This document shows positions 26,967 to 51,207 of a stretch of 64,000 nt of DNA, piece after piece. Location: NCBI RefSeq assembly GCF_029338255.1, contig NZ_CP119787.1, forward strand, positions 1,612,001 through 1,676,000, given 5' to 3'. The translations under genes were made by a program, and so were the position numbers. The notes below the pieces were generated by a model that ran no database searches, had not been told where the DNA came from, and saw nothing but the letters and a program-made list of their open reading frames with translations. The stretch is from Haloarcula halobia. GTDB lineage: Archaea; Halobacteriota; Halobacteria; Halobacteriales; Haloarculaceae. Each line of letters begins with the position of its first letter. The stretch's first letter is position 1.

Positions 26967-28277
26967 TCAGGCCGACGCGCCGACGAGGTCGCCCGCCTTC
27001 GCGCGCGAGCGCTCGACGATCGCCGGGCGGGCCTCGAACTCGATGACGACCTGGTCGCCGTAGTCGACGGTCTCGACGTGGGCGTGGTCGTGGATCCACG
27101 AGACGAGGCTCATGGTGTCGTCGGTCATCGGCAGCACGAGGCGTTCGCGCTCGTAGTCGGGCAGTTCGGCGTCGATGCGCTCGGCGAGGGCCTCGACGTT
27201 GAGGCCCTCCTGTGCGCTGACTGCCACGGGGTTCGGGGCCAGTGCCGAGAGGGCCTCCTTCTTCCGGCGGACCTCCTCGTCGTCGACCTTGTCGGTCTTG
27301 TTCAGGACGGTGACGATGGGGGCCTCGTTGCGCTCGTAGAGGGTGTCGTGGCTGGTCACCAGCTTCTCGCGTATCTCCTCGACGGACTCGGAGACGTCGA
27401 CGACCAGCAAGACCAGATCCGCGCGATAGACCGAGTCCAGCGTCGACTTGAACGACTCGACCAGCCAGTGGGGCAGGTCCTGGATGAACCCGACGGTGTC
27501 GGTGACCAGTACCTCGCGCTTGCCCACTTCGGCGCGACGGGTCGTCGTCCCCAGCGTGGTAAAGAGGCGGTCCTCGCTCTCGGCGGTCGTATCGAGGTCC
27601 GGGTGGAGGTCCTCGTTCTCGTCGACCTCGAGGTCGGCCGCGAGACGGCGCAACAGCGTCGACTTCCCGGCGTTGGTGTAGCCCGCCAGCGCGACCAGGT
27701 CGAACCCCGACTCGCGGCGCTGCTCGCGGCGGTGTTGCTCGGTCTCCTCGATGGACGCGAGCTCGTCCCGGATGTTCGAGATCTGCTTTTTGATGTCCTC
27801 CTCGCGACTCTCGTCGTACTCGCCGAGCCCCATGAACCCGGGGCGCTCGTCGCGCTTCGCGAGGCTGGCCTTGGCCTCGGCGCGCGGGAGCTCGTAGCGC
27901 AGTTCGGCGAGTTCGACCTGGAGCTGGGCCTTCCGCGTGCGGGCCCGTTGCCCGAAAATCTCGAGGATGAGCCGGAACCGGTCGATGACGCGGACGCCGC
28001 TCATCAGCTCGTTCCCGATGTTGTAGGTCTGGTAGGGGCCCAGCTGGTTGTCGAAGACGACGATCGTCGCGTCCTCGCGAGCGACCGCGTTGGCCAGGCG
28101 CGCCACCTTCCCCTCCCCGATGTGGTAGGCCGGGTCCTCGGTGCGCGTCTGGGTTATCTCCGCGACGACGTCGTAGCCCGCCGCGCGCGCGAGGTCACGT
28201 ATCTCCCCGGTGTCTGCGGTGCCGCTGTCGACTCGTTTCGCGATGACCGCTCGTTCCGTGGTGTCTGTCGCCGTCAC
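26967..28277 (-). CDS. hflX: GTPase HflX
   Basis: HflX binds ribosomes and can split stalled ones. The 436-residue protein has the N-terminal HflX domain with VVFDNQLGPYQTYNI, a coiled-coil linker, then the G domain with AGYTNAGKSTLL (G1), DTVGFIQDLPHWL (G3) and LNKTDKV (G4). Start GTG 28277 was chosen because a TATA box is centred 27 nt before it; an in-frame TTG at 28286 is less likely. Confidence 0.9.
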   Translation of the reverse strand: MTATDTTERAVIAKRVDSGTADTGEIRDLARAAGYDVVAEITQTRTEDPAYHIGEGKVARLANAVAREDATIVVFDNQLGPYQTYNIGNELMSGVRVIDRFRLILEIFGQRARTRKAQLQVELAELRYELPRAEAKASLAKRDERPGFMGLGEYDESREEDIKKQISNIRDELASIEETEQHRREQRRESGFDLVALAGYTNAGKSTLLRRLAADLEVDENEDLHPDLDTTAESEDRLFTTLGTTTRRAEVGKREVLVTDTVGFIQDLPHWLVESFKSTLDSVYRADLVLLVVDVSESVEEIREKLVTSHDTLYERNEAPIVTVLNKTDKVDDEEVRRKKEALSALAPNPVAVSAQEGLNVEALAERIDAELPDYERERLVLPMTDDTMSLVSWIHDHAHVETVDYGDQVVIEFEARPAIVERSRAKAGDLVGASA

Positions 28278-28299
28278 TCGCTTCAAGGTACGTCGTCCG

Positions 28300-28310
28300 T
28301 TTATTTAATC
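28300..28310 (-). promoter_or_regulatory. TATA box of hflX
   Basis: Minus-strand gattaaataaa is centred 27 nt before GTG 28277 and fixes the hflX start. Confidence 0.6.
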
Positions 28311-28587
28311 TGCAGGGTGGGGTCCGGTCGTGTGCGCACACCGGCCCGCACCCGGAGGCGTTGCACCGTCGCGCGGGTAGCCGTGGTATAGACGAGTCGC
28401 ACCGTTCCTGCCGGTGCTGTGGCGAGCGACCGGTGACCGGCCTCGTCGCGACGTCGCGCAGACGCCGTTGTCTCAACGCGACACCCGCCGTCGGGGCCCG
28501 TCCGGAACGGGCCTCTCGACGCCGTCGAGCAGTGACCTGGCGTCGGTAGCGACTTCTGACGCACCGCTACTCGGCGTCGCGCTGTGG

Positions 28588-28592
28588 AAAAA
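28588..28592 (-). terminator. T-run after the candidate small gene
   Basis: Five T residues on the minus strand lie 15 nt after the stop codon of the 35-residue gene. Short T-runs are typical archaeal termination signals; no hairpin is needed. Confidence 0.35.
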
Positions 28593-28606
28593 TGGGTCGC
28601 AGGTGG

Positions 28607-28714
28607 TTACGCGGCAATGCTCGCGGCCGCGATGAACGACCAGCGGGTACCGCTGGAGGTCTCGGTTTCTTTCTTCGCTGCCTTCGTCGTGTTTCGGGGG
28701 TGTTTCCAGTTCAT
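28607..28714 (-). CDS. Candidate 35-residue protein
   Basis: The frame runs ATG 28714 to TAA 28607 and encodes MNWKHPRNTTKAAKKETETS followed by SGTRWSFIAAASIAA. The basic N-terminus and short hydrophobic end suggest a small soluble or membrane-associated protein. Support is indirect: a TATA box centred 28 nt before the ATG, as in leaderless haloarchaeal genes, and a T-run after the stop. No homologue is recognised. It could also be a small RNA transcribed from the same promoter. Confidence 0.4.
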   Translation of the reverse strand: MNWKHPRNTTKAAKKETETSSGTRWSFIAAASIAA

Positions 28715-28737
28715 CACGACTACATACTCCCTCTGTG

Positions 28738-28746
28738 CGTATAAAG
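28738..28746 (-). promoter_or_regulatory. TATA box of candidate small gene
   Basis: Minus-strand ctttatacg is centred 28 nt before the ATG at 28714. Confidence 0.5.
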
Positions 28747-29212
28747 TGTTCGATATCTTATATATTGTCGTGGTTATTGATTAACAACGAGGACTGTGAA
28801 AGATATGTTTTCAGGCGTATCGACGCGAAATCCCACGACGGTACCGACGTATCGGACGGGGCAGCCCTGGTACCTATCGGAATTTCGACCTGTCCTGGCA
28901 CCCCGTCAGGAGCCGTTTCGACTGCTCGGCGAGTCCGACGCCTGTAGTCGAGTCCGCTGCAACCGCCCTGCGCATCCGGCTGGATGGGAGGTACCAGTCC
29001 CCGCCGGCCGCCTGCCGATGGCCCGTCGGGTGAGGGGCCGGAGTCCGGTGTCTCTCCCCTGTGACGTGCACTTCGGCGCTGTTTTCACTCCTGATACTCC
29101 AGGTTACCCCGCTTTTGTTCCCCAGTCTCCAGAATCGGCACCCAATTCTCCCCTTCGATATCTTGAACCCGCCCAAACTGAGCGCCAAATCGTGGTAGTA
29201 TGTGGCAAGATA

Positions 29213-29221
29213 GTACTATAA
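29213..29221 (+). promoter_or_regulatory. TATA box of UPF0058 gene
   Basis: gtactataa is centred about 30 nt before the ATG at 29249. Confidence 0.55.
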
Positions 29222-29248
29222 CCCTCCGTCTGTTATGCTGTTGTATCC

Positions 29249-29485
29249 ATGAGGAAGCAGGAGCTCATCCATCTTCACAGCCTGCTCGCGCAGGTACAGA
29301 ACCACTACGAAGCCGACACAGGATCCGAGGTCGCCCAAGCGGAGTACACGGCGCTCGGCGTCAAGCCGACGTCCATCCACAAATCGAAGACCGACCACAA
29401 AGACGCCGTTTTTGCGCTCGCCGACGGCCTGACCGACGACATGCTCGAGCGCAGCGACGAACCGCTGACGCTCACCGCCGACTGA
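29249..29485 (+). CDS. UPF0058 family protein
   Basis: The 78-residue protein starts MRKQELIHLHSLLAQV and ends its conserved part with GVKPTSIHKSKTDHKDAVFAL, matching the archaeal UPF0058 family. The function is unknown. Several histidines could bind metal. It has its own TATA box and probably a T-run terminator, so it is a single-gene unit. Confidence 0.88.
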   Translation: MRKQELIHLHSLLAQVQNHYEADTGSEVAQAEYTALGVKPTSIHKSKTDHKDAVFALADGLTDDMLERSDEPLTLTAD

Positions 29486-29517
29486 ACCCTTCTGTGTCGG
29501 TATCCACAGTCCCCCCC

Positions 29518-29523
29518 TTTTTT
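29518..29523 (+). terminator. T-run after UPF0058 gene
   Basis: Six T residues follow a run of C residues 33 nt after the stop codon; a weak 4-bp stem precedes them. Confidence 0.4.
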
Positions 29524-29586
29524 CCGCCAGCCACCGGCTTCTCGCCCACCGGCGTCCTCACGTCCGCTCGCTGCCCTGCCACTACG

Positions 29587-29596
29587 TTTAAATATA
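29587..29596 (+). promoter_or_regulatory. TATA box of ribbon-helix-helix gene
   Basis: tttaaatata is centred about 31 nt before the ATG at 29623, implying a very short leader. Confidence 0.6.
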
Positions 29597-29622
29597 CCCT
29601 TGCTGAACCCCAGGGTAGTCAG

Positions 29623-29853
29623 ATGCCGAAAATAGAGATCTCCGTTCCGGAACACCTCGAGATGCAGATTTCACAGCTGGTCGACCAGGGCGAGTTCCTC
29701 AACCGCGAGGACGCCTTCGAGAGCCTCCTCTCGACCGGACTCAAGGCCTACAAGGTCAGCGGCCCCAGCGAGGAAAACGACGAACCGGGCTTCGAGGACG
29801 ATCCGCTGGAGGACAGCGGGATGATGGGCCACGACGACGAGTACGTCTTCTGA
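29623..29853 (+). CDS. Small ribbon-helix-helix-like protein
   Basis: The 76-residue protein begins MPKIEISVPEHLEMQISQLV, then QGEFLNREDAFESLLSTGLKA: a beta strand and two helices as in CopG/MetJ-type DNA-binding dimers. The last 25 residues are strongly acidic and end GMMGHDDEYVF, a tail that recurs in haloarchaeal homologues. A regulator role is inferred; no target is known. The TATA box supports this ATG over the longer frame. Confidence 0.75.
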   Translation: MPKIEISVPEHLEMQISQLVDQGEFLNREDAFESLLSTGLKAYKVSGPSEENDEPGFEDDPLEDSGMMGHDDEYVF

Positions 29854-29892
29854 GTGTGCAAGTGTGGTACGCGGTACCTCAACCCTCAGTCA

Positions 29893-29900
29893 ACTTATAG
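29893..29900 (+). promoter_or_regulatory. TATA box of aIF1A
   Basis: acttatag is centred 26 nt before GTG 29923 and selects that codon as a leaderless start. Confidence 0.6.
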
Positions 29901-29922
29901 GCCGTGGGGGCGTAGTCTACCC

Positions 29923-30219
29923 GTGAGCGAAGATACAGGGCGACGGAACCTCCGTATGCCTACAAACGACGAGCTGTTCGCGGTCGTAACTGAACACCTG
30001 GGCGGGAACCACGTCCGAATCCGCTGTGAGGACGGCGAGACGCGTCTGGGCCGCATCCCCGGCCGGATGAAGTTCCGCACGTGGATCAACGAGGACGACA
30101 TCGTCCTCGCCGAACCGTGGGACTGGCAGGACGAGAAGGCAAACATCGAGTGGCGCTACACCGGCCAGGACGCCGACCAGCTCCGTGCCGAGGGCCACGT
30201 CGACTCGCTGACCGCCTGA
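29923..30219 (+). CDS. eif1a: Translation initiation factor aIF1A
   Basis: The 98-residue OB-fold protein promotes scanning and subunit joining at the small-subunit A site. [36 protein letters not shown] and [19 protein letters not shown] are family hallmarks. The start is a GTG at 29923, supported by the TATA position and by homologues that begin just before GRRNLRMP; the ATG 12 codons in would cut this conserved part. It is the last protein gene before the rRNA operon. Confidence 0.92.
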
Positions 30220-30447
30220 AGTTTTCTGTACCCTGTCTCGATGCGTCCGAGCGACAGCTCCAGGTCTCCTGTGAGTCGGCCGTGTGCCGACGGTCGCTGC
30301 GCCGCCGGCCCCGACACACTGGCCCGACGCAACCGGCAGTCCGTCCGCGAGGGGCTCTGGACGCGCGTGACCACTCGTGCGCACGCGGACGAAAACTCGA
30401 CTGCGCGTTCGCGGGGCGCAACCTGCCCGTCTGCGACGACGTAGGCC

Positions 30448-30455
30448 TCTATATC
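30448..30455 (+). promoter_or_regulatory. Possible upstream rRNA promoter
   Basis: tctatatc lies about 200 bp before the main rRNA promoter. Haloarchaeal rrn operons often have tandem promoters, but no start-site consensus is visible here. The remaining 30220-30650 DNA shows no gene. Confidence 0.3.
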
Positions 30456-30653
30456 TCTGTGTACTCCGGGAGAGACTATTGTCGGTCTCCGGTCCCGCCG
30501 CTGGATGCCCGGCGAACCGTGCGTCGGTGTATCAATCAGAACGCGAACCATTTCTACCACCGACCCTCCGCTGTCGTGCGGTTCGGTGTGTGACGGCGTG
30601 ACGGCACGTACGAGCCATGTGGGGTCTGCACAGGGTGGGTCTGAGACGAGTCA

Positions 30654-30663
30654 TTTATATATA
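30654..30663 (+). promoter_or_regulatory. Main rRNA operon promoter
   Basis: tttatatata is followed about 26 nt later by aatgcgaagg (30680-30689), which resembles the TGCGAACG-type start site of haloarchaeal rRNA promoters. The distance to mature 16S is about 290 nt. Confidence 0.7.
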
Positions 30664-30846
30664 CCCCTCTCCTCGGAAGAAATGCGAAGGTCGCACGGGG
30701 CACCACCCCGGGCGAACACGGTCCGACGCGTCCTCGCGACGTTCGGGCCGTTCGCAGAGAGCACGTCGACGTCGCTTCGGCGACACCGACTCTCTCGACC
30801 GATGAGGATTCCACCCCTGCGGTCCGCCGTCAAGATGGAATCTGAT

Positions 30847-30872
30847 GTGAGCCCACGGACCCATACAGCAGT
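30847..30872 (+). other. 16S processing stem, 5' strand
   Basis: This segment pairs with 32509-32535. Nine pairs (gtgagccca), a one-base bulge opposite, three pairs, an A/C mismatch, then thirteen pairs (cccatacagcagt). It would loop out the whole 16S. A separate perfect hairpin (ccatcgat/atcgatgg, 30875-30897) follows. Confidence 0.75.
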
Positions 30873-30971
30873 TACCATCGATACTGGAAATCGATGGGTT
30901 ACGCTTCCGACGGAGTGATACCACACTCAGACGTTGCATCGCGCAACGCCCGCCGCTGACTCAGTCAGCAC

Positions 30972-32439
<1,468 letters not shown>

Positions 32440-32508
32440 ACAGAACGGGACTGGGGCACTGCCCCAGCCCACAATCGTTGTCGGCATCCGCCGACGACAC
32501 CGAAGCGG

Positions 32509-32535
32509 ACTGCTGTATGGGCCCGCTGGGCTCAC
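32509..32535 (+). other. 16S processing stem, 3' strand
   Basis: This is the complement of 30847-30872 and begins 70 nt after the 16S 3' end. At first sight the part from 32520 looks like a tRNA acceptor strand, but it belongs to this stem. Confidence 0.75.
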
Positions 32536-32769
32536 GAGACCTATCCGAGGCGGATACCCCTCGCGGGGTGTCGGGTGCAACTCCCGACGGGTCCGTATCT
32601 CGTGTCACGCCCGAACCGAGCCCCTTAAGTGTGGGACGGCGCTCGGACGTGATACGACGACTGATGCACCAACCCGGGTGAAACCGCGGTTGGGAAGGGT
32701 CGACTCGCCCACCTCTCCCACCTTGGGGGCGAGAATGAAACCGTGTGTACGTGCGATCCAGGCGTCCAC
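32536..32769 (+). other. 16S-23S spacer without tRNA gene
   Basis: The spacer folds into several hairpins, for example acccc/ggggt near 32560, gtcggg/cccgac near 32570, ccaacc/ggttgg near 32670 and tcgccc/gggcga near 32707. None combines an acceptor stem, anticodon arm and T-arm, so the tRNA-Ala usual in haloarchaeal spacers is missing. Confidence 0.7.
32624..32630 (+). promoter_or_regulatory. Possible internal spacer promoter
   Basis: cttaagt in the spacer, flanked by ccgagc and gctcgg, resembles the internal promoters reported in haloarchaeal rRNA spacers. The evidence is the motif only. Confidence 0.3.
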
Positions 32770-32801
32770 TGGACTCGTTCAACTACAGTTCAACGAGTCA
32801 C
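32770..32801 (+). other. 23S processing stem, 5' strand
   Basis: The outer part tggactcgttcaa and inner part cgagtcac pair with 35758-35770 and 35740-35747. The middle is interrupted, with only tac able to pair; this is where a bulge-helix-bulge endonuclease site would be expected. Confidence 0.7.
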
Positions 32802-32809
32802 AATTGACG

Positions 32810-35727
<2,918 letters not shown>

Positions 35728-35739
35728 ATCATACGCACT

Positions 35740-35770
35740 GTGACTCGTCGAGAGTATTTGAACGAGTCCA
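35740..35770 (+). other. 23S processing stem, 3' strand
   Basis: Complement of the segment at 32770-32801; gtgactcg and ttgaacgagtcca are the paired blocks. Confidence 0.7.
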
Positions 35771-35854
35771 GGCGCAAACTGGATCGCACGATTACACACG
35801 GTTCTAGGACCGACCGAGACCGGTATCATCACGGTTCGACTCCGTGACTCGGCG

Positions 35855-35976
35855 TTAAGGCGGCCATAGCGGCGGGGTTGCCTCCCGTACCCATCCCGAA
35901 CACGGAAGATAAGCCCGCCAGCGTTCCGGTGAGTACTGGAGTGCGCGAGCCTCTGGGAAACTCGGTTCGCCGCCGA
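35855..35976 (+). rRNA. rrf: 5S ribosomal RNA
   Basis: The 122-nt sequence starts ttaaggcggccatagcgg and contains cccatcccgaacacggaag and gcgcgagcctctgggaaa, all typical of haloarchaeal 5S. It lies about 130 nt after 23S. No tRNA-Cys follows it. Confidence 0.95.
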
Positions 35977-35992
35977 CCACTCATACCTTATT

Positions 35993-36035
35993 GCTCGCAC
36001 GGAGAGCCATCTGCGGCTCTGCGTGCGGGCTTTTT
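35993..36035 (+). terminator. rRNA operon terminator
   Basis: A 16-bp stem with one mismatch (gctcgcacggagagcc with its partner at 36015-36030) and a 6-nt loop is followed by five T residues. It lies 16 nt after 5S. Confidence 0.8.
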
Positions 36036-42988: not shown

Positions 42989-44112
42989 ATGGACACGAAA
43001 CGCCGGACCTTCCTGCGCGCGCTCGGTGCCGCAGGCGTGGCCGGCCTCGCCGGCTGTACCGGAACCGGGGGCTCGGGGGGGCCCGCGGCCACCGAGACCG
43101 AGGGCGGCGGGACGGCAACGACGAGTGCCGGTGAGGCGACGACGATCAGCGCGGACGATGCCCGGCCGCCGACGGTCGACCGGCGCCTGTTCCTGGGCCA
43201 CGACGTCGAGACGATTCGAAGCGAGATCACGAGCGGCGGCGTCCCGAAAGACGGCATCCCGGCCATCGACGACCCGCAGTTCGGGCCCGCCGAGGAGGCG
43301 GCGCTGGACCCGGGCGACCCGGTATTCGGGGCCGTCCGCGACGGCGAGGCGAAGGCCTACCCCCAGTCGATACTCGTCTGGCACGAGATCGTCAACGACG
43401 TGCTCGGCGGGGACCCGGTGGCGGTCACCTACTGTCCGCTGACCGGCACCGCCCAGGGCTTCGAGCGGGGACCGGTCGAGTTCGGGACGTCGGGCGACCT
43501 TGTCAACTCCAACCTGGTGATGTACGACCGCGGGACGGACAGCCGGTGGCCCCAGGTGACCGGCACCGCCGTCGAGGGCCCGCTGGTGGGCCAGTCGCTC
43601 CGGGAGTTCCGGGTCGTCTGGACCACCTGGGAGCACTGGCGGGCGGTCTACCCCGACACGGTGGTCCTGACCGACGAGACTGGCTTTTCGCGGCGCTACG
43701 GGTCGGACCCCTACGGCCAGTACAACCCGGAGCGGGGCTACTACGCCAACGACCGGACCATCTTCTCGCCGCTGGTGAGCGACGACCGAAATCGACCGAA
43801 GGACGTCGTCATCGGCACCCGGACGACGGAGGGCGCACTCTCGTTCGACAAGAAGTCGCTGCTGGACGAGCGCGTATTGGGCGGGGCCATCGGCGAGACG
43901 GAGTACGTCGCTGTCGCCGACCCGGCCCTCGAGACGGGCTACGTCTACGAGACCAGCGACGGCCTGACGGTCGCGGCCGCCGGCGACGGCTACCGCGTCG
44001 ACGGCGAGACCTACGCCGCCGCCGAACTCCCGCTCGACCGGACGCTCGCGTTCGACGGCATGTGGTTCGCGTGGGCGGGCTTCTACCCGGAGAGCTTCCC
44101 TATGTCGAATGA
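42989..44112 (+). CDS. DUF3179 lipoprotein, 3' end uncertain
   Basis: The protein starts MDTKRRTFLRALGAAG, a Tat signal with lipobox GC (C23), then a Thr/Gly-rich stretch and the DUF3179 domain (VAVTYCPLTGTAQGF, NSNLVMYDRGTDSRW). The function is unknown. The frame as written has no stop at the domain end and runs on through the next gene start to 44782, becoming nonsense. One extra base near 44097 would give a natural end FYPESFPYVE at the TGA at 44110-44112. I place the end there, but an in-frame fusion is possible. Confidence 0.7.
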
Positions 44113-45243: not shown

Positions 45244-45250
45244 CTTATAA
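45244..45250 (+). promoter_or_regulatory. TATA box of VWA-kinase cluster
   Basis: cttataa is centred about 30 nt before ATG 45277. It is the only clear TATA box before the five-gene cluster, although the later genes may have their own. Confidence 0.6.
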
Positions 45251-45276
45251 TCGGATAGTCTGACCAGCTTCACAGT

Positions 45277-46461
45277 ATGACTGCGAACGTCGTGACGGAC
45301 GTCAACCGCCCGTACGTCCCGGGAGACGGGGCGAAACTGACCGCGGAGATAGAGGTCGACCCGGGCCGACGGGCGGGGCGTCCGACGCGACAGCTTGCGC
45401 TGTGTATCGACTCGAGCGGGTCGATGGCCGGCGACGACATCCAGCAGGCCCGCGACGGGGCCGAGTGGGTGTTCGGCCTGCTCGAGGACGACGACTACGT
45501 CGCCATCGTCACGTTCGACACCGAGGTCGAGACGGTGCTGGGCGCGACGCGCTGGGGCGACATCTCCCGTGACGAGGCCCTCGACCGCGTGGCGAACGTC
45601 ACGGCGGGCGGCGGGACAGACATCTACCGCGGCCTGGTCGCGGCTCGCGACGCCTTGCACCACCTTCCGGCAGACGACCAGACCGCGCGGCGCATCCTCT
45701 TTCTGTCCGACGGGAAAGACCAGAGCCACGGCGAGGCCGAGTTCCAGACGCTGGCCCGTGCCATCGACGAGGACGGCATCCGCATCAGGTCGGCCGGCAT
45801 CGGGTCGGACTACCGTAAAGAGACCATCCGGACGCTGGGCGAGACGGCCCGCGGCGAGTGGACCCACCTCGAGTCGGCCGGCGACATCGAGTCGTTCTTC
45901 GGCGACGCCGTCGAGGCAGCCGGGACCCTCGTCGCGCCCGACGCGTCGCTCGAACTGGACGTGGCCGACGGCGTCGAGGTCAGCGAGGTGTACCGCGCGG
46001 TGCCACAGACCCAGCAGGTCGACGTCGAGTGGGCGGGCAACGCGACGGAGATTCCGCTTCCGGACCTGCTGGAACGAGAGGCCCAGCGCGTCGTCCTGAA
46101 GATCCACGCGCCCCCTCGCGAGGTCGGACAGACGGTGACCCTCGCCGACGTGACGCTTTCGGCCCGCGGCGAGACAGCACACGGTGCCATCGAGGTGGCG
46201 TACACCGACGACCCCGAGCAACTCGCCGTCCACAACGAGGGCGTCGACATCGACCACCGACAGACGGTCATCAAGACCGAACTCGGCAAGGGCAACGTCG
46301 CCGAGGCCCAGACCCAGGTCGAGAAGATGACCAAGGTTCACGGCGCGGACACGCAGGCGGTCAAGTCCGCCGAGCGCGAGACCCGGATCGTCGCCGAGGG
46401 CGGCCGGGCCGAGGAGAGCGAGGCGACGAAGATCGTGACCGACGAGGGGCTCCAGCAGTGA
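45277..46461 (+). CDS. VWA-domain protein of kinase/phosphatase cluster
   Basis: The 394-residue protein has a VWA domain with a complete metal site: DSSGS (D45, S47, S49), T113 in GGGTDIYRG and D144 in FLSDGKD. A beta-rich region (220-320) and a helical C-terminal tail follow. There is no signal peptide, so it is cytosolic. VWA proteins bind partners through the metal site. It is first of five codirectional genes with kinase, phosphatase and FHA domains, and likely a scaffold or substrate in that pathway. Confidence 0.88.
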   Translation: MTANVVTDVNRPYVPGDGAKLTAEIEVDPGRRAGRPTRQLALCIDSSGSMAGDDIQQARDGAEWVFGLLEDDDYVAIVTFDTEVETVLGATRWGDISRDEALDRVANVTAGGGTDIYRGLVAARDALHHLPADDQTARRILFLSDGKDQSHGEAEFQTLARAIDEDGIRIRSAGIGSDYRKETIRTLGETARGEWTHLESAGDIESFFGDAVEAAGTLVAPDASLELDVADGVEVSEVYRAVPQTQQVDVEWAGNATEIPLPDLLEREAQRVVLKIHAPPREVGQTVTLADVTLSARGETAHGAIEVAYTDDPEQLAVHNEGVDIDHRQTVIKTELGKGNVAEAQTQVEKMTKVHGADTQAVKSAERETRIVAEGGRAEESEATKIVTDEGLQQ

Positions 46462-46526
46462 CCGGTCCCACCGCACGTCGACGACACCCGACGGCGGGTT
46501 CGGGCGAGTGTCGACGCCAGTGACCC

Positions 46527-47762
46527 ATGACCTGGGAACCCGAGCCGGGCGACGTCATCGCGGACCGCTACGACCTCCAGGAGTTCCTGGGCAAGGGCGG
46601 GTTCGCGAAGGCCTACCGGGCCACGGACCGGGCGACGGGCGACAACGTCGTGCTGAAACACCCCAACTACACGGAGTCCCAGAACGACCCCGACGTCATC
46701 GAGGCGTACTTCCGGAAGGAGGCCGAGTCGCTCCTGAAGATTCGGGAGGCGGGTGGCCACGAGAACGTCATGGACCTCTACGACCAGGTGACCGAGCGCG
46801 ACGTTCCCTTCCTGGTCGTCGAACTGGTCGCCGGCGGCATCGAACTCGACGAGGTCATCGACCGCCACGGCCCCATCGAGGACACCGACCAGGTCCGGCA
46901 AATCGGCATCGACCTCTCGGACGCGATGGGCTTCCTCCACGAACACGAGATCGTCTACCGCGACCTGAAACCCGAGAACGTGATGCTCACGTCAGACATC
47001 ACGCCGACGCTCATCGACTTCAACACGGCGACGGGGTTCGACGCCGCTGGCGACCCGTCGACGGGCAACTCCGGGACGACCATCCTGGGGCCGTTCAAGC
47101 CCCGCGAGGTCGCCGAGGCCAGTCGGACCGACGTCCGCCAGGGGCCCTGGTCCGACGTCTACTCCATCGGGAAGATCCTCCTCTTTCTCCTGAAGGGGAG
47201 CGTCCCGAAGAAGGACGGTGTCGACCCGCGGGACTTCGGGGCCGACTGCGAGGACTACCTGGCCGAAATCGTCGAGCGGGCCACCCAGACGGACTACCGG
47301 GACCGCTACCGGAACGCGACGGTCCTGAAGGAGGTGCTCCAGACCCGCGACCCCGAACCGCCGGCGCGGGCCTCTGTCCGGTACGTCCAGGCCGACGAGC
47401 GGTTCACCGTCGAACCCGGCGACACCATCGGCCGGCAGGGGGCACGTGGCCCGTCGGCCTCCATCGCCATCGACGACCCGCAGGGCGAGTACATATCGTC
47501 GGTCCAGGTCCAGTTCGACACCGCGGACGGCGACTGGCACCTCCACGACCGGAGCCTCAACGGGACCTTCGTCCAGCAGGGACGGGGCTGGCAGCGGGTC
47601 CTCTGTGCGGCGGGGCGGGAACGCCTGCGAGACGAGGGCGAGGACCCCACCGACCGGCACGGGCGGGTCCCCCCGGAGTCGGTCCGCCTGCACGACGGCG
47701 ACCTGGTGTCGCTCGTCCACCCCACCTACGGCGTCACGTTCGAGTTCCATCCGGAGACATGA
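46527..47762 (+). CDS. Ser/Thr protein kinase with C-terminal FHA domain
   Basis: The 411-residue kinase has a glycine loop LGKGGFAKAYRA (21-32), lysine K44, glutamate E65, and YRDLKPEN (144-151) with the catalytic D146. The metal-binding motif is DFN (164-166) instead of DFG, a variation known in active kinases. The APE region is unusual (KPRE). The FHA domain (about 300-405) has DDPQGEYISSVQVQF and LHDRSLNGTFVQ and should bind phosphothreonine. The product is probably an active, autophosphorylating kinase. The PP2C gene overlaps its stop by four bases. Confidence 0.9.
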   Translation: MTWEPEPGDVIADRYDLQEFLGKGGFAKAYRATDRATGDNVVLKHPNYTESQNDPDVIEAYFRKEAESLLKIREAGGHENVMDLYDQVTERDVPFLVVELVAGGIELDEVIDRHGPIEDTDQVRQIGIDLSDAMGFLHEHEIVYRDLKPENVMLTSDITPTLIDFNTATGFDAAGDPSTGNSGTTILGPFKPREVAEASRTDVRQGPWSDVYSIGKILLFLLKGSVPKKDGVDPRDFGADCEDYLAEIVERATQTDYRDRYRNATVLKEVLQTRDPEPPARASVRYVQADERFTVEPGDTIGRQGARGPSASIAIDDPQGEYISSVQVQFDTADGDWHLHDRSLNGTFVQQGRGWQRVLCAAGRERLRDEGEDPTDRHGRVPPESVRLHDGDLVSLVHPTYGVTFEFHPET

Positions 47763-48829
47763 CCATGCGATACAGCACCAACTACGACATCGGCGAGCGG
47801 AAGCGCGGACGGGGAATCAACGAGGATAGCGTGGCTCTGACCGTCTTCGAGGAGGGGCACCGCGAGGGCTACCGCGAGGGGACCCGCGACGACGGGCGGC
47901 CGACGAACCGCTCGGCGGCGGCGTTCGTCCTCGCGGACGGGGCCGGCGGCCACGACGCGGGCGACGCGGCGTCCTACATCGCGACGACGAGCGTCGCCGA
48001 ACGCCTGGCGCCGGTGGCGATACGCGCGGCCCGGCGCCACCCCGACCAGTTCGACGTGGACGTCGACCGGTCGGTTCTCCCCGACGCCCGCGGCGAGGAA
48101 GGCATCCAGGCCGCCGTCGAGGATGCCATCGTCGAGGCCCACCGGGACGTCATCCGGTACGCTGCGGCCGCCGGCACCCAGTCGTACACTACCGTCGTCG
48201 CCGGCGTCTACGCCGACGGCGCCCTCCACTACGGCTGGGTCGGCGACAGTCGGGCCTACGTCGTCAACGAGGCCCGCGAGACCATCGACCGGCTGACCCG
48301 GGACCACTCCGTGGTCCAGGACCGGGCGGACGGGGGCGAACTCGACGCCGTGGCGGCTCACGTCCACCCCGACGGCAACCAGATAACCCGCGCGCTGGGC
48401 GGGTCTGGCTACGAGGACCCCGCGGAGGCGTCTGTGGAGGTCGACACCCGGAGCGTCCGCCTGTACGCCGAAGACACCCTGGTGGTGACCAGCGACGGTC
48501 TCGTCGACGCCCAGACGGACGCCCCCGACCTGTACGACGAGTACGTCGCGTCCGGTCGGTCTGCGGCGGTCGCAGAGCGCGTCCGGGAGGCCGTCGTCAC
48601 CGACGCCGAGATTCGGGACGTCGCGCTCGAGGCGACCACGCTCGACGCGGCCGCCCGCGAGTACGTCTCGCTGGCCAACGACCGGGGCGGCAAGGACAAT
48701 GTCTCCGTCCTCCTGTTCGAGGACCCGGTGCTCCCGGCTACGCCCGAATCCGGCGGCCTGCCGGTCCGTGCCGTCGACTCCGACCTCGACGTCCGGGACC
48801 GGGACACCGTCGTCGTGACCGATAACTGA
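47759..48829 (+). CDS. PP2C-type protein phosphatase
   Basis: The 356-residue phosphatase has the PPM metal motifs: INED (20-23), LADGAGGHDAGDA with D60, GWVGDSRAYVV, TSDGLVD and GGKDNVSVLL. It should remove phosphate from Ser/Thr. ATG 47759 overlaps the kinase stop (ATGA), so the two are translated together and likely act on the same target. A helical insert follows the GDAA motif. Confidence 0.9.
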   Translation: MTMRYSTNYDIGERKRGRGINEDSVALTVFEEGHREGYREGTRDDGRPTNRSAAAFVLADGAGGHDAGDAASYIATTSVAERLAPVAIRAARRHPDQFDVDVDRSVLPDARGEEGIQAAVEDAIVEAHRDVIRYAAAAGTQSYTTVVAGVYADGALHYGWVGDSRAYVVNEARETIDRLTRDHSVVQDRADGGELDAVAAHVHPDGNQITRALGGSGYEDPAEASVEVDTRSVRLYAEDTLVVTSDGLVDAQTDAPDLYDEYVASGRSAAVAERVREAVVTDAEIRDVALEATTLDAAAREYVSLANDRGGKDNVSVLLFEDPVLPATPESGGLPVRAVDSDLDVRDRDTVVVTDN

Positions 48830-48879
48830 GGGGTATCGCGTGGGCAACTGTTTTTGCCCCCTGGGAGGTACCGACAGCC

Positions 48880-49971
48880 ATGGCCGACACAGACGACGGA
48901 GACGCGGTCGAGTGCCCACTCTGCGGGCAGCCCTTCGACCCGACCGCCGCCGGGGGCTGGTGTACGAACCCCGACTGCGGTGAGTGGCAGTACGAGGGCG
49001 CGGCGGGCGACGGCGACGAGGCGAGTGAGGACGCCGCGCCGGCCGCCGACTCCGAGACCGGACCGACAGACGAACTGGGTACGGAGGCCGCCGACGCCGA
49101 TTCCGCCGACGCCGACCCGGAGGCCGGACCCGCCGAGCCAGACCCGGCCTCCGGCGAGGCGAGCTGGGAAGACGTCGACCCCGCGCCCGAGGGAACAGCT
49201 TCGGCGCCCGAGGACGAAGACGACGAGTCCGACGTGGACGCCGCCGACGATCACGGGGACGAGACCCCGGCGACCGACGACGCGGACGCGTCGGAACCGG
49301 CCGGTGCCGAGTCCGCGTCGACGTCGGCGGAGACGGGCCCCTCGGACACGGACGACACTGGGGCGGACACCGACGCGGTCACGGCCGACACGCCCGCGAC
49401 CATCGAGTGTCCCGACTGCGGGACCGAACTCGACGCGGACGCGAACTTCTGTATCGAGTGCGGTGCCGACGTCCAGGCCGTCGAACCCGGTGGGGACGAC
49501 CTCACAAAGTGTCCGTCCTGTGGCACCGACCTCGAGGGCGACGAGCACTTCTGTGCGAACTGCGGCGAGGACCTCGAGGCCCACCGGGGCGGGTCCGGGG
49601 ACGCCGAGGCGGACGTCGACGCCGTCGACGCACTCGCCGCGCAGTCGGCGGACGAGACGGCGGCCGTCCCGGACTCGCTCGTCCTCTCGGTGGCCGGTAC
49701 CGACATCACCGTCGCGGACGGTGACAGGGTGGGCCGGGCGGTCCGGGCGGCGCTCGCCGACGCCGGCCGCCCCGAGGACGAGGCGGTCCGCATCCACCGC
49801 GAACACGTCCGGTTCGTCCGCGAGGCCGACGGGTTCTACCTCGTCGACCTGGGCGAGAACCCGACGACGCTCAACGGTCGCTCCCTGCGGAAGGGCGACC
49901 GGGAACCCGTCGGGCCCGGCGACGAGCTGGAGCTGTCCGGCGTGGCGACCATCACCATCGAGGCGCCGTGA
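48880..49971 (+). CDS. Zinc-ribbon protein with C-terminal FHA domain
   Basis: The 363-residue protein begins with a CPLC...CTNPDC zinc ribbon (12-33). A long acidic, low-complexity linker (about 40-170) follows, then two more zinc ribbons (CPDC...CIEC and CPSC...CANC) and an FHA domain (about 265-360) with RIHREHVRF and NPTTLNGRSL. It looks like an adaptor that reads phosphothreonine made by the upstream kinase. No catalytic domain is present. Confidence 0.82.
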   Translation: MADTDDGDAVECPLCGQPFDPTAAGGWCTNPDCGEWQYEGAAGDGDEASEDAAPAADSETGPTDELGTEAADADSADADPEAGPAEPDPASGEASWEDVDPAPEGTASAPEDEDDESDVDAADDHGDETPATDDADASEPAGAESASTSAETGPSDTDDTGADTDAVTADTPATIECPDCGTELDADANFCIECGADVQAVEPGGDDLTKCPSCGTDLEGDEHFCANCGEDLEAHRGGSGDAEADVDAVDALAAQSADETAAVPDSLVLSVAGTDITVADGDRVGRAVRAALADAGRPEDEAVRIHREHVRFVREADGFYLVDLGENPTTLNGRSLRKGDREPVGPGDELELSGVATITIEAP

Positions 49972-50019
49972 CCGGGATTTCACCCACACTTAAGCGCCCG
50001 CTGTAGAAACCACTGACCA

Positions 50020-51207
50020 ATGTGGGGCGGCTCCCTGTCCGCTGAACTCCGCGACTCCGTCCGCCTGGTCGGCGCCGAGCGATGGTTCTTCGCCGGCGGC
50101 GTCCTGGGTACTGTCGTCTACGGCGGCTGGGTCCTCGGGACCGGAACGCTCGCCGACGCCGTCGCCCCGTCGCTCGCCGGGTCGACCCTGTTCTCGGTGG
50201 GGTCGGCCCCCGTCGATGCGCTGGCGGTGCTGGCGGCCGTCGGCTGGGTAGTCGTCCCGGCGCTCGTCGCGGCGGCGCTGCTCGACCGCGCGCTGAAGAA
50301 CACGCGAGGGAATCTCGCGTCGCGCTACCGGTTCGACCACCCGAGCGCGCTGGTCGCGCCGTCCGGTCTCGTCGTGTTCGCGGTGGTGGCCGTCGGCGCC
50401 ACGGCGGGGCCGTCCCCGCTGCTGGCCGCCGCCGGCGCCGTCGCCGCCGCGCACCTGTTCGTCAGGACGCTCGCCTACGGCTACCGGGTCTACACGTTCT
50501 CGGTGCCGCCGCTTCTCTCCCTGCTCTCGGTCCTCGCTGCGGCCAGTCTCGCCGTCGCGTGGCTGGTCCACGCGCCGGCGCTGGGAACGTTCACCGGGTC
50601 ACTCGGGGACCGACTCGCCGCCACGGGCGTCGCGTCCGTCGCCGAGACGGTGGTCGCAGCCAGCGGCGTCGACGCCGGCACCGCTCGCTCGGCCGCCGTG
50701 ATGGGACCCGCGGTGCTCGCGGCGGCCTACCTGGTGCCCCAGTCCGCCGTCGGCCTGGTCGTCGCGCTGCGCGCGCCGCTCGAGAATCCGCGACCGCGGC
50801 CGGGTCAGCGCTACCCGAGTGCGGGCCGTCGTACAGCGGCGCCATCGGCTGACGCCGGTGGCCCGGGCCGGGACGACGGGGCGGCCGAGACGGACGCGGA
50901 CCCGGACGAATCCGCTCCGGCGGGAGCCGACACGGCCGACGATACCGACGACGCGCCGGCTGACTCCGACGAGTCCGGCGGGACCCGCGTGTTCACGCCG
51001 GACGAGCCGCTTCCGGAGGAGACGGCGGCGGCCGACGAGCCGACGCCCGACGGCACGACCGCAGACGAGTGGTTCGCCGACACCGCGGTGTACACCGACG
51101 ACGCCGCGGGCGAGGGAACGTCCGACCGGTGCCCAGCGTGTCACGCGGACGTACCGGCCGATGGGTCGGCACGGTTCTGTCCGAACTGCGGCGAGCGCCT
51201 CGACTAG
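50020..51207 (+). CDS. Membrane protein with acidic tail and zinc ribbon
   Basis: The 395-residue protein has about six membrane helices within residues 20-255. Next come an acidic disordered stretch and a C-terminal zinc ribbon CPAC...CPNC. It is the last gene of the kinase cluster and could be the membrane anchor or output of the pathway. The zinc ribbon resembles those in the previous protein. Its stop overlaps the convergent archease stop by three bases. Confidence 0.75.
   Translation: MWGGSLSAELRDSVRLVGAERWFFAGGVLGTVVYGGWVLGTGTLADAVAPSLAGSTLFSVGSAPVDALAVLAAVGWVVVPALVAAALLDRALKNTRGNLASRYRFDHPSALVAPSGLVVFAVVAVGATAGPSPLLAAAGAVAAAHLFVRTLAYGYRVYTFSVPPLLSLLSVLAAASLAVAWLVHAPALGTFTGSLGDRLAATGVASVAETVVAASGVDAGTARSAAVMGPAVLAAAYLVPQSAVGLVVALRAPLENPRPRPGQRYPSAGRRTAAPSADAGGPGRDDGAAETDADPDESAPAGADTADDTDDAPADSDESGGTRVFTPDEPLPEETAAADEPTPDGTTADEWFADTAVYTDDAAGEGTSDRCPACHADVPADGSARFCPNCGERLD

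Follow-up and report, generated by a model that had tools for sequence, protein, structure and literature searches.

What kind of signalling system is encoded by five adjacent genes of the haloarchaeon Haloarcula halobia that bring together a VWA protein, a kinase, a phosphatase and two zinc-ribbon proteins? The genes lie at positions 45277-51207 of the window, the 64,000-nucleotide stretch of contig NZ_CP119787.1 that was analyzed, and an earlier note on this DNA had read them as a phosphorylation relay from cytosol to membrane and likened them to the bacterial TerY-P triads. All five open reading frames were confirmed where the note had placed them, in the same direction on the + strand. Gene A (45277..46461) encodes an ArnB-like VWA protein of 394 residues, gene B (46527..47762) a Hanks-type Ser/Thr kinase with a C-terminal FHA domain, gene C (47759..48829) a PP2C-type phosphatase, gene D (48880..49971) an ArnA-like protein and gene E (50020..51207) a multi-helix membrane protein with a disordered linker and a C-terminal zinc ribbon. 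The genes are closely spaced, with 65 bp between A and B, 50 bp between C and D and 48 bp between D and E, while B and C share the 4-bp overlap ATGA that had been reported. The Pfam scan found VWA in A, Pkinase and FHA in B, PP2C in C, zinc ribbons and FHA in D and a ribbon below the cut-off in E, in agreement with the FHA domains and recurring zinc ribbons described before. Overall, the locus is real and conserved, and an expanded phospho-switch of the ArnAB type is a more fitting description of it than a TerY-P system.

The likeness to ArnA and ArnB rests on genes A and D. The structure of A, predicted by AlphaFold with 23 orthologues (pLDDT, the predicted local distance difference test score, of 93.7), consists of a beta-sandwich split by the VWA domain (approximately residues 37-215), a helical bundle at residues 321-383 and a floppy tail. 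When the model was compared with the PDB by Foldseek, the top match was the actinobacterial VWA protein 4fx5, followed by ArnB (8s05; template modelling scores 0.73/0.75, expect value 2e-27) and the ArnB paralogue 5a8j (0.65/0.69), after which the matches drop clearly. A phmmer search of the PDB likewise gave 8s05_A as the best match of A (8e-8) and 8s05_C as that of D (a weak zinc-ribbon match, 0.046), so that A and D match two chains of a single complex, ArnAB. The metal ion-dependent adhesion site (MIDAS) of A, residues D45/S47/S49/T114/D145, is intact in 36/36 orthologues. Protein D has a zinc ribbon, an acidic linker, a double zinc ribbon and, as its C-terminal end, an FHA domain (Pfam-matched part at 49786..49935, +), in which G285, N327 and T329 are conserved in 31/31 proteins and R286 in 28/31. 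This is the layout of ArnA, which consists of a zinc ribbon, a flexible loop and an FHA domain (PMC10470591). Four more distant ArnB-like VWA genes (L184, L185, L186 and L187) were seen in genomes that do not carry the operon, with no match to B, C or D nearby.

In Sulfolobus, the zinc finger of ArnA holds ArnB loosely until the kinase ArnC phosphorylates threonine in the C-terminal domain of ArnB, whereupon the ArnA FHA domain binds tightly (PMC12852372). The haloarchaeal locus resembles this archaellum regulatory network, which also includes the kinase ArnD and the phosphatase PP2A, in the fold of A, in the zinc-ribbon/linker/FHA partner encoded next door and in the likely location of the phosphosite within the VWA protein's C-terminal region. 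The systems differ in that kinase and phosphatase here belong to the same operon, the phosphatase is a PP2C rather than a PP2A, kinase B carries its own FHA domain, the candidate phosphosites are found in a tail beyond the helical bundle, and the VWA protein has a sequence tag, described below, in common with the phosphatase and the membrane zinc-ribbon protein. Because ArnB-like structures have been mentioned in Halorubrum (PMC12852372), the ArnB fold as such is not new to haloarchaea. No link to archaellum or pili genes was seen in the examined neighbourhoods.

The two enzymes of the operon are well conserved. Residues K44/E65/D146/K148/N151/D164 of the kinase and D23/D60/D163/D246/D313 of the phosphatase are each present in 36/36 orthologues, as are R303, S324 and N345 of the phosphothreonine pocket in the FHA domain of B (Pfam-matched part at 47424..47579, +). 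B is the only strong Hanks-kinase match in the genome, where two weaker kinase-like matches occur elsewhere. In loci L055-L065 the phosphatase has an added C-terminal FHA-like extension (with a Pfam FHA match in L055), and in several loci another kinase-FHA gene follows downstream.

What is new here, and open to testing, is the shared tag. Orthologue alignments revealed a common Thr-x-[VI]-[hydrophobic] motif in otherwise variable, disordered segments of three proteins: the tail of A, the tail of C and the linker of E. In A, which ends in ..SEATKIVTDEG.., the motif TKIVTDEG (46426..46449, +) follows the last helix and runs into the disordered end; its candidate phosphosite, Thr384, is Thr in 34/36 orthologues and Ser in the other 2/36. 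In C, which ends in ..DRDTVVVTDN, the motif is TVVVTDN (48806..48826, +), and its candidate phosphosite, Thr350, is found in 36/36 orthologues, even where the tail has come to link the phosphatase to an added FHA domain. The E linker contains TRVFTPDE (50983..51006, +; Thr322), in which only T, R, V, F and P, of all linker positions, reach at least 94% identity, and TR[VI][FY] recurs in 26/26 E proteins, detached copies included. A second motif nearer the ribbon, TAVYTDDA (51082..51105, +; Thr355), has the form DT[AS]V[FY] in every E copy within the genus and is absent from other genera. The motif also extends beyond these orthologues. Membrane zinc-ribbon proteins of the Natrialbaceae type carry T[RQ][IV][FY] approximately 20-27 residues before the ribbon in 10/11 cases, the eleventh (in L052, 209 residues) being short and devoid of both linker and motif. 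In the Thermoplasmata, which were out of sample, A tails read DTVILTDEE, STTVILED or QATTIIGKKK, and the PP2C proteins of a first clade end in RDTVMKI, KTVV or NTLI.

Like GarA/OdhI-type FHA ligands, the tags have a threonine in a flexible segment, followed by hydrophobic residues at +2 and +3, a spacing that is known from the bacterial self-ligands OdhI, GarA and DgcB (PMC6733907). As in those proteins, the flexible-tail threonine would be read by an FHA domain, and the phosphorylation by a Hanks-type kinase that occurs in GarA and OdhI is here predicted. The difference is that their tails are ligands of their own FHA protein, while here the tag lies on several separate proteins.

Apart from the weak ribbon match, protein E fits no Pfam or NCBIfam family, and Foldseek found no homologue in the PDB. 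Its AlphaFold model shows long helices, approximately six in number, along with a disordered linker (residues 263-368, pLDDT below 50) and the C-terminal ribbon, C371-C390 (51130..51189, +), whose four cysteines are present in 17/17 aligned proteins. In the Natrialbaceae-type loci a divergent gene for a membrane/linker/zinc-ribbon protein adjoins the cluster, and a profile comparison connects the membrane part of this protein with E, but both alignments are shallow and rich in hydrophobic helices.

Conservation of the five-gene order, to which the earlier note had looked for support, is borne out, since the block is kept far beyond chance. A total of 292 Halobacteria genomes were searched with C, A and E (strong matches having expect values below 1e-60, 1e-58 and 1e-60, respectively), and 40 loci were retrieved and compared by tblastn. 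C matched 46/292 genomes, 39 of them strongly, and A returned the same 39/292. The operon is carried by 16/16 sampled genomes of the genus, the nearest named relative being Halomicroarcula sp. SYNS111 with 92% identity in C. The order A-B-C-D-E in one direction is shared by Haloarcula and several other Haloarculaceae genera. D-A-B-C is found in a family that includes Halovivax and is taken here to be the Natrialbaceae, in which another kinase-FHA gene usually lies downstream of C, and in other haloarchaea; further haloarchaeal loci have variant arrangements. Named loci from Haloarcula, Halosimplex, Natrinema, Halovivax and Halobellus confirm these orders. Flanking genes, examined for a functional neighbour, differ between genera while the block persists. 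Homologues of E occur in 26 genomes, all of the Haloarculaceae and all among the carriers of A-B-C. In four of the 26, E is unlinked, lying elsewhere in the genome in G041, G059 and G114 and forming a D-E pair about 70 kb from A-B-C in G199. Because such detached copies are retained, there is strong evidence that E belongs to the system.

Beyond the haloarchaea, A was found in 17/300 Thermoplasmata genomes from two clades, and the order A-D-B-C could be read in most of the retrieved loci, including the Pfam-checked metagenome-assembled genome L124, where all four genes run in one direction. A Chloroflexi contig (L135:6971-11060) encodes consecutively a kinase-zinc-ribbon-FHA protein, a zinc-ribbon-PP2C protein and an A-like VWA protein. 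A genome-level Pfam scan for PP2C missed even C, and the absences reported here are not based on it. Other sequences came up in these searches. A different haloarchaeal PP2C paralogue has recurring neighbours of its own (L067:5448-8738, L068, L069, L070 and L071; clusters c42, c43, c44 and c25), and L086, a contig labelled Phycisphaerae with B and C at 44-45% identity, is probably a mis-binned haloarchaeal contig.

From gene order, the fold of A, domain layout, residue and motif conservation and co-occurrence, we infer each phosphorylation and binding step of the following mechanism. A and D would form a resting complex through a zinc ribbon of D, as ArnB and ArnA do. Kinase B would phosphorylate the tag threonines on the A tail, the C tail and the E linker, and the FHA domains of D and B would bind the phosphorylated tags. 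Phosphorylation would tighten the A-D complex and draw it to membrane protein E along with the kinase and the phosphatase. The phosphatase, brought in by its own tag, would then reset the state. By analogy with Sulfolobus, the output may be a surface or transcriptional programme under a nutrient or energy signal. We give a probability of roughly 60% to the reading that the locus is a phospho-switch of the ArnA/ArnB type whose operon also encodes the writer, the eraser and a membrane anchor. The earlier interpretation is partly supported: its relay draws support from the synteny and co-occurrence of the genes, from catalytic and FHA residues that are intact and from the threonine motif common to three of the proteins. 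The accompanying statement that the output is unknown in archaea holds for haloarchaea but not for Sulfolobus, where archaellum, pili and DNA-damage genes are concerned (PMC6509490, PMC10470591, PMC12852372).

Several observations weigh against this phospho-switch. The claim that all catalytic residues are visible is correct for the MIDAS and for the listed kinase and phosphatase residues but not for the kinase motif that is canonically DFG, which is DFN here, DF[N/T] in the orthologues and never DFG. No ArnB_C family match for A appeared in the Pfam scan at expect values up to 0.1. The tail motif is absent from the phosphatase in one Thermoplasmata clade, three divergent loci (L052, L053 and L066) depart from it in the A tail, and the Chloroflexi relative does not have the tag. 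The motif was spotted after A, C and E had been viewed and its first statistics are post hoc; its background is 31/951 threonines in other proteins of the window (3.3%) and 6/403 unrelated C-termini. Neighbouring and co-occurring genes fix neither the input nor the output. Finally, by eye in the alignments, the Haloarculaceae D FHA has His in place of the canonical Ser of SRxH. This last point also favours an alternative in which the motifs serve to dock the kinase or the phosphatase, or have a structural role, rather than being phosphothreonines read by FHA domains, with the operon still forming one signalling unit; that the phosphatase itself bears the motif points the same way. Nevertheless, the threonine is the most conserved position of the motif in all three proteins, with Ser as its only replacement in A, the FHA pocket of B is invariant and the +2/+3 hydrophobic pattern fits known FHA ligands, so that docking or structural motifs, while a serious alternative, seem unlikely.

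The comparison with TerY-P, which would assign the locus to metal, tellurite or phage stress, draws on the same three classes of protein, VWA, PP2C and Ser/Thr kinase, being encoded together. It is demoted because the fold of A and the layout of its partners match ArnA/ArnB and because the genome has no member of the TerD family. The modelled A, with its split beta-sandwich and helical bundle, is ArnB-like rather than TerY-like, the Pfam scan found no C-terminal TerY domain, and the partners here include FHA and zinc-ribbon proteins. PADLOC returned generic kinase similarity only, and the defence-system lead that it offered was rejected on that ground. The presence of the operon throughout the sampled genus is also unlike a defence island, and the results obtained contain no pointer to a role in metal or oxidative stress. 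A TerY-P system is therefore improbable. Two other known systems are partly similar. Actinobacterial GAP1-N2 neighbourhoods have an adjacent kinase, PP2C and stand-alone VWA gene as well as zinc ribbons, but they are tied to a GTPase-centred conflict system, and the portion of the source drawn on here describes no shared tag (PMC7159879). The Halo_FHA ESCRT group (arCOG13166) contains haloarchaeal FHA proteins linked to Ser/Thr kinases; however, these have a C-terminal CdvA-like domain, whereas D ends with its FHA domain by Pfam (PMC10936438).

Still less probable is a minimal Sec23/24-like coat or membrane platform, in which A and the zinc ribbons of D would be recruited to E and phosphorylation would control assembly instead of gene expression. 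ArnB does have the core architecture of Sec23/24 (PMC12852372), Sec24c is among the Foldseek matches of A, and zinc ribbons and a membrane partner are present, but the similarity is to a widespread fold, and beside the operon there was no sign of a gelsolin domain, a Sar1-like GTPase or a vesicle gene. That the genes are accidental neighbours with separate functions, as the detachment of E and D from A-B-C in a few genomes might suggest, is already strongly disfavoured and can hardly be correct, given that detached copies are kept only in A-B-C genomes with the motif retained and that the block stays while its flanks vary.

If the operon is a phospho-switch of the ArnAB type, its tag may mark further clients. 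In two D-A-B-C loci, L051 (2099-5142) and L052 (311-8204), unrelated neighbours are tagged, most of them with a C-terminal zinc ribbon. They include PQQ propellers (DTEVFE, NTKIFAP), a HEAT-repeat protein (RTEVFNPNE), a beta-rich protein (ETRVFTGG), an FHA protein and a ribbon-less membrane protein ending in NTKIYDPD. A protein with a TBP domain and a zinc ribbon that adjoins D (L051:12867-13574, -) ends in NTQVYNPSE and is a possible transcriptional client. With the A-E families excluded, a ribbon is present in 7/10 tagged and 9/421 untagged proteins (Fisher p 2.5e-9), an association that is only a lead because two loci supply nearly all the tagged proteins and the filter thresholds were self-chosen. 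In the genome of H. halobia itself, the narrow DNA pattern TR[VI]F[ST]P gave E and two matches of uncertain reading frame with unusual A+T-rich codons, and no further obvious clients. We would tentatively entertain the possibility of a widespread archaeal tag system, in which Thr-x-[Val/Ile]-[Phe/Tyr/Val], often just before a C-terminal zinc ribbon, is added to unrelated proteins (membrane, PQQ, HEAT, TBP-domain, phosphatase and ArnB-like hub). The tag would then assign these proteins as clients to a single kinase/FHA/PP2C module, in the manner of a portable phospho-recruitment code.

The surroundings of the operon add a few details. By eye, a TATA-like CTTATAAT (45244..45251, +) is located about 26-33 nt 5' of the A start codon, a position consistent with one leaderless haloarchaeal operon promoter. 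The upstream neighbour, NikR, is divergent, and downstream a convergent archease gene overlaps the stop codon of E. A DUF3179-like lipoprotein gene (window 42989-44111, +) lies upstream of the operon, as it also does in Haloarcula. Elsewhere, positions 28000-36000 have a G+C content of 0.57-0.61, compared with about 0.70 in the rest of the window, and few long open reading frames were called there.

Little is known about the substrates and outputs of most archaeal Hanks-type kinases, and FHA proteins were still regarded in 2023 as conserved only in Crenarchaeota and occasional elsewhere in archaea (PMC10470591). In the literature on haloarchaeal FHA and PP2C systems, no description was found of this operon, of its kinase and PP2C or of the motif. 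Here a single operon combines a writer and an eraser with two readers and three likely substrates, whose candidate phosphothreonines can be named, in relatives of Haloarcula that can be cultured. Because three of its proteins share a tag resembling what FHA readers bind, archaeal signalling wiring, so far hard to trace, is opened to direct testing. From the tag, further clients can be predicted in other genomes, and the TBP-domain protein hints at a transcriptional output.

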